Origin: Owenia fusiformis
Lineage: Eukaryota > Annelida > Polychaeta > Sabellida > Oweniidae
NCBI GenBank assembly: GCA_903813345.2
Contig: CAIIXF020000010.1
Location: 36,197,425 to 36,261,424 of the forward strand
Direction: 5' to 3'
DNA: 64,000 nucleotides
In this document: positions 51,101 to 60,100 of the stretch, in pieces
Layout: each line of letters begins with the position of its first letter
Position numbering within the stretch: position 1 is the stretch's first letter
The notes under the pieces: model-generated
What the model saw: only the letters and a program-made list of their open reading frames with translations
The model's database searches: none
What the model was told of the DNA's origin: nothing
Position numbers and translations under genes: made by a program

Positions 51101-54100
51101 CATGGGGTAATTTAAAAAATGCACATATTTTCTATTTCATATTATGTGACTAAGAATACATAAGGGGTAAAAAGAGCATAGTTTAACTTTCTCTATTTCA
51201 TATCATGTGACTATAAAGAAGACAATAACAGGATACACATGGGGTATATAATAAATGCACATATTCTCGCTTTCTCTATTTCATATCATGTGACTTTAAA
51301 TAAGCCAATGAACATCCAGCATACATATTGAATACCATATATAAAAATGCACATATTCTCGCTTTCTCTATTTCATATCATGTGACTTTAAATAAGCCAA
51401 TGAACATCCAGCATACATATTGGATACCATATATAAAAATGCACATATTCTCACTTTCTTTTTCATGATGATTTCCCGATCCATATCCCTTCTTTTCCAC
51501 TCCTCAGCCAGTGTCTTCATGTATGTTTCTTCTTTATTACGTAGCTGTAACAAAACAAAACATTAACAAGGGCAAAGTCTGGATTTAAAATTAGGTAAGG
51601 TCAACGTAAATAAGTGACTACATGTAGTGACTTAACCATCCTTTCGCAACTGCTGAACTATGTTTCTTTCATGGAGACCTAACCTACTTCAAAGCATCTT
51701 TTAAAACAAGTGTAACCTCTAAAATATTTTGTAAAATGTTTTGAAAATAGTAGTTTTAACTCACTAAAAATGGTATAAGAGCTCTTAGTCAAGAGGTAAG
51801 GTCAACGTAAATAAGTGACTTAACCATCCTTTCGCAACTGCTGAACTATGTTTTTTCATGGAGACCTAACCTACTTCAAAGCATCTTTTAAAACAAGTGT
51901 AACCTCTAACATATTTTGTAAAATGTTTTGAAAATAGTAGTTTTAACTCACTAAAAATGGTATAAGAGCTCTTAGTCAAGAGGTAAGGTCAACGTAAATA
52001 AGTGACTACATTTAGTGACTTAACCATCCTTTCGCAACTGCTGAACTATGTTTCTTTCATGGAGACCTAACCTACTTCAAAGCATCTTTTAAAACAAGTG
52101 TAAACTCTAACATATTTTGTAAAATGTTTTGAAAATAGTAGTTTTAACTCACTAAAAATGGTATAAGAGCTCTTAGTCAAGAGGTAAGGTCAACGTAAAT
52201 AAGTGACTACATTTAGTGACTTAACCATCCTTTCGCAACTGCTGAACTATGTTTCTTTCATGGAGACCTAACTTACTTCAAAGCATCTTTTAAAACAAGT
52301 GTAACCTCTAAAATATTTTGTAAAATGTTTTGAAAATAGTAGTTTTAACTCACTAAAAATGGTATAAGAGCTCTTAGTCAAGAGGTAAGGTCAACGTAAA
52401 TAAGTGACTACATTTAGTGTCTTAACCATCCTTTCGCAACTGCTGAACTATGTTTCTTTCATGGAGACCTAACCTACTTCAAAGCATCTTTTAAAACAAG
52501 TGTAACCTCTAAAATATTTTGTAAAATGTTTTGAAAATAGTAGTTTTAACTCACTAAAAATGGTATAAGAGCTCTTAGTCAAGAGGTAAGGTCAACGTAA
52601 ATAAGTGACTACATTTAGTGTCTTAACCATCCTTTCGCAACTGCTGAACTATGTTTCTTTCATGGAGACCTAACCTACTTCAAAGCATCTTTTAAAACAA
52701 GTGTAAACTCTAACATATTTTGTAAAATGTTTTGAAAATAGTAGTTTTAACTCACTAAAAATGGTATAAGAGCTCTTAGTCAAGAGGTAAGGTCAACGTA
52801 AATAAGTGACTACATTTAGTGTCTTAACCATCCTTTCGCAACTGCTGAACTATGTTTCTTTCATGGAGACCTAACCTACTTCAAAGCATCTTTTAAAACA
52901 AGTGTAAACTCTAACATATTTTGTAAAATGTTTTGAAAATAGTAGTTTTAACTCACGAAAAATGGTATAAGAGCTGTTAGTCTAGCCATCTTGGAATGCT
53001 GTGTACGAGTGTAAATGGGGCTAAGATGAATATACAGTGGTTTCACAGTGGTAATCATTGATTAAAAAGTCGCGATAATCAGAAGTAACCAACAGTTATA
53101 GTCACAATAACGTTTTATTCACTGATGAATCCTGTACCTGTGGGATGTGGACTAAAGGATGGACCCAAATGGATTCCAGAGTTGATAAATTGAATCTATT
53201 TCCAAGAAAACAATAGATTTATTGTAACAAACTCAACTATTAAATAGATATTCATTTTACCACTGAATCAATGTGCCCTTTAATCCATGTGCTCTTGAAT
53301 TCGCGCTGAACACCCAGATGCGAATATAGCGGAAATTAGGGCACCTTGAAAATTTGGGCTTTTACGGAACAAAGTATCAACTGAGTTCAATTTTTATTCA
53401 ATGCAACATATATCATGAGTGACATGTCTACGGTCTGATTGGTTGCTTGTTTGTTCCTACCATTCAAAGTATCACAATCTAAGATTTGTTGCAAATCTTT
53501 ACCTGTTTTTCAAAGACAGTTTCTTGAGCATGCTTCCACATTTCAAGTTCCATTGCAGCTTGATATTCCTGGGTCTCCCTTGGTTCTAGGGGTGGGGCAC
53601 TCTGACCTTGGGGTGGGTCACTCTGGACTGGGGGTGGGGCATGTTGTCTTGGAGGTGGGGCACCTATCGTTGTTGCCTCACTCTGTAAAAATCATGCACA
53701 ATAATTAGTTCATCTTGAATTCTCGGAACGACAGATATTTCTGATGAAAACGTTTGATGACTCGAGGTTTTAAAACCAAATTACTTTCAGTTTTTTTTAA
53801 AACTTGCAAATCAAGGTCTATTTTTAAACTGACCTGTGATGTGTCCTCGCCTACGGCCACACGCTGTAAGTTAATAGGACCTAAATCTTCCAGACTAAGT
53901 AGTACAAAGATTTCCCCAAGTTTGCGTAATTGTCTACAATTGAAAAACAGTACACATATATCAGATGACTTGCAGGCAATTTGTGCTATTTTCAAAGGGA
54001 TTAATGTTCTATTATATGCAACAGGCACTGTGACATTAGTCTAGTGTCATGGTAAAATGTCAAAACATGTTTGCGATTACGAAATTACAACAATCTTTTA

Positions 54101-57100
54101 TTCAGCTATTGATCCTATGTACAATGTTCATCTGCTTGTAATTATTTCATTTCTATTTCTGTCAAAATGTTGTCTGCTCATGCTTATTTCACTCAATTTC
54201 TCATTAAAATTTGAAAGAAGTGTCTATATTTTTAGCATTTCTATACAATTTAGAGTATTAACTGCATGTGTGTTTACTTTATTCCCTACAAATGTCACTC
54301 TTTTTCACTCTATTTTGAAATTTAAACTCACCCATGACATTTTACTTACACATATGTTAACTTACCCGTCAGCTGATATTATTGGGAGATGATCTGTAAA
54401 TGTCTGTCGCATACCTGTGGTGCCATCTTCTTTAACAATACGAGTTTTTTCCGACTGGAATATATGAGTAAGTGGAAGTTTTACAACTCCGAGGATGGTG
54501 TCTTGTGCCTTCTGACGATCTCTGTCCCAAACTTCAACAACTAAAGGTACACTGGAAATAAGGAACATATGATATTAGCGATCATCTCAAATTTTCATTT
54601 ATAAACTATCCATATAATTCATTTTCTTAACTAATGGGCTCACCCACCCAATGATGTTCAAACATTTTGGGAGTTAATATAAAAACTCTATATATTCTGG
54701 AAATTCTTGATTTCATGGTATTTCTATTCAATGATGAGTTCTGATTTTGGGAGTTAATATAAAAACTCTATATATTTAAAAAATAATGTTTTTACTTTTA
54801 ATTTCTACTAACTCTGTCTATCTCCTCTTGGTTATTCCATTCAATATCTCTTTAAAATTAGAAATTCTGGATTCCATGGTATTTATATTCAATAACGAGT
54901 TCTGACTCCATGCCTGTTTATTCTATTCCTTTGTTTTTTTATTTCTCTTTTTCAATAGAGAAAAGTAGAGAAAATACTGTGTTTTAAAGTGTTGTATTTG
55001 ATGATCTACATTTATTTTTTTCTAAAATGGTGGGAAATTCAAGTAACTGAAAATTATAAGATAAACATATGAAGTCATTTTCTTCAAAAGATGTCTCAAA
55101 CGTTTTTTCAAGTCATGAAAAGTAATATTATCTTTTCGAATTTTACACAGGGCTTTAAGTATTTTAACCCATGACCCCTGCACTTCATGAGAATCATACC
55201 TGACGATTGTGTCGAACAACTGTTGCGGTGTGGTAGCAAAGTTAAAAGCACAGAAAGACTGAGGGAGCAAAACTTCTGTGCCTCTCCTCACCTCGACAGC
55301 TGGCTGAGTAAGAATTGGAGCTGCACTTCCAAAAAATGGATAAGCATACCTAAAATGCCAAAAAACATTTTTTTATTCACAAGCAGCCAAAAATAGTTAT
55401 AAACATCATTGTAAATCACAAGGAGCTTTTTGTGTGAACTTTGATATATCTTGGAATTAAATCCATATTCTTCCCTGAAAAACATTAAAGGCCCCATATA
55501 AAGTTTAAACCCCTTTAGCTTATATTACAGTCTTGCCCAATGTTATCAAACTTTACATGGGGCCTTTAAAGCTTCAGAGTACAAAATTACATAATTCAGG
55601 AAAATATGAATTATAAAGCATGAAGAATCAAAGAGATAAAATTCTAATTCAAACCTTAAAAACACATTGACGTAAGTTTTTGTATCAAAATCCCGAATAC
55701 TACGAAGATCAATAGAAAAACAGAAATGGTGGTTTTGCTGAGGAACTGCTATATGTGCCTGGGTGGTGCTACTCTCAGTGGAGGGGGTGGGGTCTGGAGG
55801 GAGAGAAACAGCTCTCACTCCTGGTGACATCTTTTCTGATGTTTTAGTTTTATCACTTGGAGATTTCTTTGTTTTAGCACCTACAAGGAAAATGTTGGTA
55901 ATCAGGCCATTGCCAGTTTTTGTCACTTTTTATAAAAATTCCATGGGGTTCACATTTGACCATTTTGGCCCAAAACCCCTTGAAAGTGCTCAGAGTGTTG
56001 AAAAACTGAAAATTTTTGACATATTCATCATGATTTGAAACGAAAAAATAGATCAAAAAGAGAGATAGACCTTTCCAATAAATGCTGCCACCTTTTGGTG
56101 TATCAAAGAAGCTATGATACATTGGCTAGATTGATGATGTCATTGGTTGTATTTTTGATTGATGATGTCATAGGTTGCAAGTAGCAATATGTCCAAGAAA
56201 AAATAGGATAATCTTATTGCTAATTTTGAAAACACGTAACCAATGAACATCATCAATCTAGCCAATATGTCATAGTTTATTTGATACACCAAAACGTGGC
56301 AGGGTTTAGTCAGGAGGTCTATTAGCAAGGAATAAAGTAAACAACGGTGTAGGCATCATACTAAATTGTACAGAAATGTAAGAAAATCGAGAAATATTTG
56401 AGAAATAGAGTGAAATAAGAATGAAGTAAAACTAACCATCTTCTTTTCGCTGTTCTACTGAAATATTACTGATATCTTGGTCTGTTTTTTCCTCCTCAAA
56501 ACTTTCCGTATAACTCTCAGCTGATTTCGATAAGATTTCTTCAGGATGTTTAAGCTTGGACTGGTCCTTTGGAGGGGTCTTTTTAACTTCTGATGGCTTA
56601 TTTTCATTTTGGTGTGTTTTGGGAAGTTTTTCAGGTGGGGATTGATATTGTCTGGGTTGAGATGGCATTTCCATATTTGGAATCATGCTTTTAATTGGCG
56701 TTGAAATTCCCTAGAAAAGAATAACAACAATATATAAATACATACATATAGATAAAGTATATAAAATACATACATTTTACAATATAAAGATGACATAATT
56801 TAAATATATTCTGGTGGTGACATAAAAACTTAGAAATCTTTAAATACACGCTCTTTTTTGAGGTTTGAAATGCACAAAGCTGTGAAATGGTGTTTTGCAT
56901 TAGTCTAACTGATACAAAGTAATCCTATATCCATAACACACTAAATACTGAATTTAACAGACCGGCTCCCTCGAAATACCTGCTCTTCTTTCTTGAGAAC
57001 AATAGATATCCCAACGATTGGTTGCAGTTCTTCTGGAACAGGTGTTAATTGCTCTCTATGTCTATTTGGAGGTATCAACTACAAAACAAAAATTATACAA

Positions 57101-60100
57101 TTGTTCACTTCATTAGAGGTGGATAGTGAAAATTGTTTACCTCCAGTGAAAGCAAAGGATATTGACTAAAACTATACAAGAATTTCAATATTAGTTGACA
57201 CTATTAAAATTTTAAATGCACATTTCTTTTTAATTCATCTAATGTGACGGAGGCAGCATGGAGAGAAATCCCGTCATAAAATTTGATTAGCGCTGAACAA
57301 ATTCAATCAATTAACATTTATCCAAAATGGTACATATTCTCAGCCAAGCTAATCTGGGTGGCGAATTGGTACCAATTTGGTACTGTTTTTGATAATAGTG
57401 TATTCACCTCAAAAGCACCTTCGATTGAGACAGGTTTCATATATATCTCTGTGCTCCCCTTTTTCAATAGCGAATTCAGTGGTATTTTACTGCTCCCTAG
57501 AGATTGGTCCCCACAGCATAAATGCAGCTGTAAATAAATGAATAAAAATTCAGTGGTATTTTACTGCTCCCTAAAGATGGGTCCCCACAGCATATATGCA
57601 GCTGTAAATAAATCAATAAAAATTCAGTGGTATTTTACTGCTCCCTAGAGATTAGTCCCCACAGCATAAATGCAGCTGTAAATAAATGAATAATAAAAAT
57701 TCAGTGGTATACAGTGGTATTTTACTGCTTCCTAAAGATTGGTCCCCACAGCATAAATGCAGCTGTAAATAAATCAATAAAAATTCAGTGGTATTTTACT
57801 GCTCCCTAAAGATTGGTCCCCACAGCATAAATGCAGCTGTAAATAAATGAATAATAAAAATTCAGTGGTATTCAGTGGTATTTTACTGCTTCCTAAAGAT
57901 TGGTCCCCACAGCATAAATGCAGCTGTAAATAAATCAATAAAAATTCAGTGGTATTCAGTGGTATTTTACTGCTCCCCAGAGATTGGTCCCCACAGCATA
58001 AATGCAGCTGTAAATAAATGAACATTTAACCTCTAATTATGTGTATTAAAATATACCCAAATATGGTAAAAATTATTAACAATAAAGAACACAAAACAAC
58101 AAAGTAAACTTTAACCAACTTTCTTTCATATTTTTATAAATAATGTTTTTACGACATAATAAAATCATGACTTGATATTTATACTATATTAGATACTATA
58201 AATTCCCTAGTCAGACGTTTTTGGCTAGATTTCCCATTAAAATTACTAAAAATACATTACTTTTTGTGTCTCTCATTTACCCAATGTAAAATCGCCCCCT
58301 GTAAGTGGAACAACTTCCAGGTGTAACACTATTTTCAGGTAATAAAGGTGTCTTATTTTCACAAGTTTAACTGTATTTGAAAATCACCTCAAGGCCTGGT
58401 TGTGTGGACAGAAACACCATCAGAGCATCAATGCTGCTTCTAAGTCTAACGGAGGCACGCTCAGCAGCAAAGTTTGGAGTCATCAAATCTTTAAATGGTT
58501 CATTACTAACATCATTACCAAATAAGGAGTAATAGAAAAAGTATCCATTTGCATTGGCAGGAAGTAGGAAGTTACTTGGTACAAGCTGAAATTAGACGCA
58601 AAATTATATATGATTATAAATTTATTTTCTATTTGAGAAAGTGATTCCTTATAGAAAAAATCATCAAATTCCCCACCAAGATGTAATTGGCAAAAATAAA
58701 GCAAACAAAATGACAAGTTAACACTTTAAATTAAATAACAAGGCAGAAACATCCAAAATGTAACCACGTGCAATTTGTCAACCTCCGATCACAGGGCTTC
58801 AAAATCCAGAATATATTCATTCTTTTTACCCCCTGCGATAAGCAGTTAGGATTTCCCCGATTAAGAACTTGCAATCTGATTGGCTGTCGCAACACTGCGA
58901 CAGAAATCATGTATAAGTCAATGCGCAAAATTAGATCACCTGATTCAGTTTAATCGGGAGCTTCCAAATTGGTTATAGCAGGGGGGAAGAAGGAGGTATG
59001 GATTCTGGATACCTGCTTAGGAGGATGGCAATTTGTGAGAAACAAAGACTGCCAAATGCAGAAAACAGTCCACAAAAAGAGACTACAACAAGAGTTGACA
59101 TGAAAAAGCAGATGCAAAAGAGTCAATTCCAATTTTGGAGAGAAAATACAGAATCACTATTTAATGTCTTGTACGTTCTTAAAATATAAACGCATTAACT
59201 GATATAACATACAACAGCAGTTCTAGATATGAAAGGATGAAAACAACAAAGTGACAACAACCCTTTAATTCGTTCAATACCTGTGTTAGATTGGCCGCAA
59301 ATGCCACAGTAACCGACAGAATGAACTGGTCCGTGCATTTGTGCTCTGGGCCAATCTGGTACCATCCTTCTGTCTCGTTCAACACAGGCTTCAAACTATG
59401 TGGGTTCACTTCACTCCTCTCTGTTAATGGAGAGTCTAGAGCAGGAGCTGTAATAGAAAATTCATTAACATCTGCATATATTGCAATTCCAATGACATAC
59501 GAAGGATGATCATATGTTCTCATAACATCTCAAAATTTTCTTTATGTTTCAATATATTCTATTCTAATGAAATTTTCACAATTTAATGACACATATCGCA
59601 ATTCAATGACACATATTACAATTTAATGACATATATTGCAATTCAATGACACATATTTCAATTTAATGACACATATCGCAATTCAATGACACATATTACA
59701 ATTTAATGAGATATACTCCAATGGCATAAATTAGAACTCAGAGACTTATATTCCAATTCAAAGGCATATTTTATATTTATTTTACTAATATTAATTCAGT
59801 ATGTGTTGCAATATAAAGACAAGTATTACAAAGGAGGTCATATATTTGGCCATGTTTTGAAATACAAAATGTAATGGAAAAAATAGTGTAATTTCAAATA
59901 AATAAATTAACACGTTTATTGAAAATAAAAATGAAAATGTATAAATATGCAAATTTTCACCACCTGCCATTTGTTACAGATGCTGTACAAATTTGTTAGA
60001 CTCTGTGAAAAAAGTTGGAGACTATAACAAAGTTGTGAACCAATAAAAATGACTGAAACACATACCTTCCCCTCTTCTAGCAGGTGCGTCCTTTGCTTTG

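Follow-up and report, generated by a model that had tools for sequence, protein, structure and literature searches.

A minisatellite was very probably born across a 3′ splice site of the CEP120 gene, so that the intron now holds decoy copies of its own acceptor and the copy joined to the exon would be the one that is spliced. In the window (the whole stretch of 64,000 nucleotides analysed here), seven tandem copies of a unit of 74, 84 or 87 bp occupy this intron-exon boundary on the minus strand, at 57474-58022, for a total of 549 bp. Each unit contains about 20 intron bases ending in TTATTTACAG and then the opening 54 bases of a CEP120 exon. Minisatellites which duplicate an intron-exon boundary have been described in amphioxus under the name of mirages (PMC3087553). 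Kinesin, dynein and myosin genes of the same genome carry similar repeats, so that the CEP120 array belongs to a recurring class, for which minisatellite birth across exon edges is the best explanation.

Structure of the CEP120 array

A preliminary description of this DNA had reported seven tandem copies of the CEP120 3′ splice site together with the first 18 codons of its exon. This is confirmed by seven exact occurrences of TTATTTACAG on the minus strand (starts, in forward coordinates, at 57528, 57602, 57676, 57763, 57837, 57924 and 58008), all seven acceptors being intact, and by TRF, which delimits the whole array at 57473-58022 (score 698) and also finds a period of 161 at 57551-58022 (score 805, 94% match). 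In gene order, the spacings are 84, 87, 74, 87, 74 and 74 bases. The features of the region are the following, the stops being those met in the exon frame:

58388-58585, minus strand: upstream CEP120 exon, donor CTTGAG/GTGATT (tblastn-type exon match)
57474-58022, minus strand: mirage-type array; intron tail plus first 54 exon bases in seven copies, units of 74, 84 or 87 bp (repeat and splice-site scan)
58008-58017, minus strand: acceptor 1, stop after 77 codons (frame reading)
57924-57933, minus strand: acceptor 2, stop after 49 codons (frame reading)
57837-57846, minus strand: acceptor 3, stop after 20 codons (frame reading)
57763-57772, minus strand: acceptor 4, stop after 36 codons (frame reading)
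57676-57685, minus strand: acceptor 5, stop after 7 codons, through its own Q>TAA change (frame reading)
57602-57611, minus strand: acceptor 6, reading out of frame into copy 7, stop after 34 codons (frame reading)
57528-57537, minus strand: acceptor 7, the sole one giving an open reading frame (frame reading)
57408-57527, minus strand: functional CEP120 exon of 120 bases, the first 54 of which are copy 7, donor GAG/GTGAAT (open reading frame; PDB 6ewg and PF12416 both match)
56985-57078, minus strand: next CEP120 exon, 3′ end approximate (exon match)

The intron running from the CTTGAG/GTGATT donor to acceptor 7 measures about 860 bases and contains the array, which thereby enlarges an existing intron; no new intron was seen.

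The identification of the gene as CEP120 holds. Together with its neighbours, the array exon matches PDB entry 6ewg (E 3e-38), with the motif present once and contiguous, and Pfam family PF12416 (E 5e-45). In the genome, PF12416 is found at a single locus, by three exon matches which all fall within the window. With a human CEP120 sequence as query, tblastn gave, in addition to the array copies and some weak hits due to chance, 17 exon-like matches on the minus strand, the first at 61.2 kb and the last at 36.1 kb. A single CEP120 locus was found, as was a single place for the array in the 498-Mb genome, by a search skipping very common words; nothing thus points to a dispersed satellite or to a second gene, and we rejected both a dispersed satellite and a paralogue or retrocopy. 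An Rfam scan of the window gave no structured-RNA match at the gathering score.

The copies are close to one another without being identical. The 18-residue CEP120 motif is the same in copies 1, 2, 3 and 7; copy 4 carries one residue change, copy 6 carries two and copy 5 has a stop at a Q codon. Over the 54-base exon parts, the mean difference is 2.5 bases and the maximum 4 (21 pairs). A higher order is also visible, as 87+74 dimers are common to copies 2-3 and 4-5, while copies 2 and 4 have in common GGA and an insert. The near identity had been taken as the mark of a recent expansion, which is one reading only: homogenisation between copies would fit equally well, in view of the 87+74 dimers.

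These private differences and ordered dimers also argue against an assembly artefact, in which the copies would come from a mis-assembled repeat. There is a precedent for it, one amphioxus mirage appearing aberrantly assembled in the genome draft (PMC3087553). However, the present 549-bp array lies inside a 37-Mb contig and arrays of the same kind occur at unrelated genes, and we hold an artefact to be very improbable.

Acceptor choice and fate of the decoys

The claim that only the last copy is followed by the rest of the exon is borne out: copy 7 alone is joined to the remainder, and acceptor 7 is open across its 40 codons, whereas acceptors 1-6 all meet stops. Judging from these reading frames, acceptor 7 most likely makes full-length CEP120. 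For acceptor 1, it had been proposed that translation would read through three copies in frame and then hit a frame-changing unit. Copies 1-3 are open and mutually in frame, but the read-through is ended by an in-frame TGA inside the linker of the third unit, ahead of any frame change. Moreover, the six spacings add up to 480 bases, which is divisible by 3; the stops and not the overall frame therefore block read-through from acceptor 1. The options initially considered, namely use of the last acceptor, skipping of the array or variant proteins, are thus narrowed by the stops, no read-through to the rest of the exon being possible from acceptors 1-6.

The same data bear on the idea of a true repeated protein segment, in which several copies would be translated in one CEP120 protein. 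The open frame running through copies 1-3 is what this idea would need; yet the TGA in the third unit, the absence of read-through from any acceptor before acceptor 7 and the single block present in the solved relative (PDB 6ewg) make it almost certainly wrong.

In the explanation that we favour, a minisatellite would have arisen over the 3′ splice site of a CEP120 intron and would have expanded to seven copies by replication slippage or unequal exchange, to which conversion among the copies probably contributed. Each unit makes up an apparently complete 3′ splice site, with an intron tail carrying AG and an exon start, and the exon's own CACTGAAT, located 20-odd bases before the next AG and picked out by eye, is a candidate branch point. 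The copies would thus remain as decoys inside the intron. Full-length CEP120 would come from splicing to copy 7, the one continuous with the exon body, probably because exon definition couples this copy to the donor lying 120 bases downstream; splicing to one of the six other acceptors would lead to a premature stop. The array may be nearly neutral. Some use of the decoys is likely, since acceptors 1-6 are identical to acceptor 7 in their last ten bases and are transcribed first.

Alternatively, this use could be regulatory: in a bank of poison acceptors, some transcripts would use acceptors 1-6, meet a premature stop and be degraded, setting in this way the level of CEP120. The six upstream acceptors have kept AG and an identical tail, and each of them leads to a stop, as do 17 of the 18 acceptors of the kinesin array described below. 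Stops, however, are expected anyway from passive copies separated by linkers of mixed length. The private non-synonymous and nonsense changes in the CEP120 copies also fit poorly with such a function, as does the existence of similar arrays in unrelated genes, on acceptor and donor sides alike, and we consider the regulatory bank improbable.

Other boundaries of CEP120

Our survey of the CEP120 boundaries covered 18 exon segments (the 17 tblastn matches and one set by eye, with ends partly approximate) and gave eight comparisons with local repeats, around or flanking five exons. Among the boundaries surveyed, only the seven-copy array is counted as boundary-spanning, a donor near 51453 being doubtful:

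51187-51466, minus strand: possible donor-side mirage, made of 92-bp units, at the CEP120 exon ending near 51453 (TRF and boundary comparison)

The two closest copies of this repeat have GC instead of GT, and it is doubtful as a second CEP120 mirage because the homology extends over about 12 bases only on the exon side. The repeats beside the CEP120 segments 61170-60992, 50375-50202 and 47850-47711, at least some of which lie in intron flanks, were not counted as boundary-spanning. Within a CEP120 coding exon, a 21-bp tandem repeat at 53589-53663 gives a proline-rich repeat in the protein. Over the whole window (1-64000), tandem repeats account for 13% of the sequence.

Similar arrays at other genes

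Seventy-five further loci (L005-L079) were screened and nine showed a local repeat, of which six were read by eye (L023, L038, L054, L058, L070 and L075) and three left out (L014, L044 and L074). Sixty of the loci are matches to two motor families, namely the best 30 of 92 for myosin and the best 30 of 80 for dynein, with some overlap, and boundary-spanning copies were found among them in three exons. A dynein exon (L070) has eight acceptor-side copies, seven with AG and one having lost it. A dynein heavy chain exon (L075) has seven copies of its donor, spaced by exactly 59 bp and always with GT. The third case is a myosin acceptor (L038) present in two copies of 79% identity. At L023 and L054 the arrays adjoin the donor and do not cross it, and L058 is a 35-base duplicate. 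In the region of L075 (G000:C8:1640405-1640590), the repeated donor is EGEE/GTACGT or GTGCGT.

The largest array lies at a kinesin motor exon (L080, G000:C2:23266200-23269900), found via repeated Pfam matches, where 18 tandem acceptors are 159 bp apart except for one spacing of 158. As in CEP120, the last copy alone continues into the exon: copy 18 runs into RARKIKNKPVVNRDPQAAEILRLKQLV, and acceptors 1-17 each lead to a stop after 44 codons. Units 2, 4, 17 and 18 of this array contain an unbroken run of 8-9 T; the T tract is interrupted in most units.

For the 60 myosin and dynein loci, with the ends of the Pfam matches as the only stand-in for exon ends, arrays of period at least 20 cover 7.5% of the flanks versus 0.4% of the matched exon bases. 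With such a coverage of the flanks, arrays that reach an exon edge need no special targeting. Random placement would lead to about nine spanning arrays over 120 boundaries (two match ends per locus taken as stand-ins), and two TRF arrays (L070 and L075) and one two-copy repeat (L038) were observed at these same stand-in boundaries. Arrays are thus, if anything, kept off exon edges, and there is no need to invoke targeting.

Variation among the copies

In the kinesin array, with units cut at 125 bases, just before the likeness to the last copy breaks down, the exon parts of the 18 copies display 8 synonymous and 2 non-synonymous variants, for an expected non-synonymous share of 0.756 (P 3.5e-4 by a binomial treating variants as independent). 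At base 17, the functional copy 18 has AAC, which is found otherwise in copy 3 only. This pattern suggests that kinesin variants may have spread by way of the functional copy. The synonymous excess is a point against idle decoys evolving independently, and it is absent in CEP120, L075 and L070. The synonymous to non-synonymous counts are 3:4 among the CEP120 copies, 1:1 for L075 and 2:7 for L070 (from seven of its eight copies, copy 6, which has a deletion, being left out); they add nothing to the kinesin pattern, and the four arrays pooled give 14 synonymous and 14 non-synonymous variants. Within CEP120, the variants present in two or more copies are 2:0 and the private ones 1:4.

These counts bear on another reading, compatible with minisatellite birth across the splice site, according to which the first codons of the exon and the decoys replace one another by conversion or unequal exchange, the functional end being both drawn from the array and a supplier to it. 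The 8:2 ratio and the distribution of AAC at base 17 in kinesin are in its favour, together with the synonymous nature of the shared CEP120 variants against the mostly non-synonymous private ones. The counts are small, however, and the phenomenon would not be general, in view of the ratios of L075 and L070. In amphioxus, arrays are reported to evolve concertedly inside with the cluster boundaries excluded (PMC3087553), which also speaks against it. We regard such an exchange as possible but rather doubtful. The wider proposal that mirages are frequent in this annelid genome, and that a functional exon edge exchanges sequence with its decoys so that the first or last codons of an exon evolve as a member of a minisatellite, is likewise put forward tentatively; for frequency, it draws on four arrays and one two-copy repeat (CEP120, kinesin, two dyneins and myosin) from the few gene families looked at. 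As regards the kinesin array, the coding exon end and the intronic copies may evolve together.

Mirages and related systems

Amphioxus Adh is reportedly the subject of a paper by Canestro et al. Amphioxus mirages are documented in Adh3 and in the globin genes BflGb6 and BflGb9 (PMC3087553), to which PGBD5 and troponin C have been added (PMC3902484). In the former, Adh3 data and globin RT-PCR are said to suggest that regular splicing is undisturbed (PMC3087553); haplotype length differences as well as somatic instability are also reported for amphioxus. Judged by its sequence, the CEP120 array has the structural features of a mirage, namely tandem units spanning a boundary, splice signals in seven of seven units and a higher-order arrangement in 87+74 dimers. 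The amphioxus mirages and the present arrays share minisatellite-like units of 10 to about 160 bp lying across an intron-exon boundary, on the acceptor or the donor side, AG or GT kept in many units, and a genic copy which is the one joined to the exon body. They differ by the host, an annelid here and cephalochordates in the reports covered, which describes a range and does not define the class, and in copy number, BflGb6 having 6 and 3 units whereas the Owenia kinesin has 18 acceptors.

The literature covered, for the most part open to all readers, contained boundary-spanning arrays in amphioxus only; reports from other animals may exist, for instance in a published census of human genic tandem repeats. 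On Owenia minisatellites, the same literature gave no report. Mirages are thus a kind already known; what is new lies in the probable group of the host, in the repeated occurrence of such arrays and in the many copies of the kinesin one. With an annelid as host, minisatellites of this type would not be peculiar to amphioxus, and how the spliceosome chooses among near-identical sites could be tested on natural arrays, which have 7 to 18 copies. Concerning the host, the annelid erythrocruorin linker family PF16915 has three places over the cut-off in the genome, which tells against a cephalochordate: one translated match was confirmed, and another place has a weak PDB match to haemoglobin linker (E 0.0025). 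The GFP family and the mollusc haemocyanin family had no match in the genome, a weak indication since no control genome matched either, and a COX1 search gave no match.

Introns can also be gained by tandem genomic duplication, in a model where a duplicated AGGT yields both new splice sites. As in CEP120, exon sequence is duplicated together with splice signals; but this route needs AGGT, which occurs 0 times in the CEP120 array (gene strand) and is likewise not found in the kinesin array. NAGNAG and other tandem acceptors lie few bases apart and change few residues. There too several acceptors compete for one exon, whereas those of CEP120 are 74-87 bases apart and six of seven lead to stops. 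Since they look like repeated exons, arrays of this type are a warning to gene predictors.

Finally, tandem mutually exclusive exons resemble the CEP120 array in consisting of tandem coding copies within one gene, but they are whole, diverged and equipped with both acceptor and donor, while mirage units repeat one splice site only. In a screen of the kinase family, with 144 matches listed and 124 of 876 candidates scored, one adjacent pair (L081, G000:C10:2256200-2257900) was rejected as a mirage, as it consists of two alternative whole exons. Of this kinase, which we take to be GSK3-like, the two exons have 47 bases between them, a distance that would favour mutually exclusive use. One myosin gene, at G000:C9:37986009-37994334, matches one and the same part of the myosin head model (within 18-84) twelve times in a row, probably through a bank of alternative exons.
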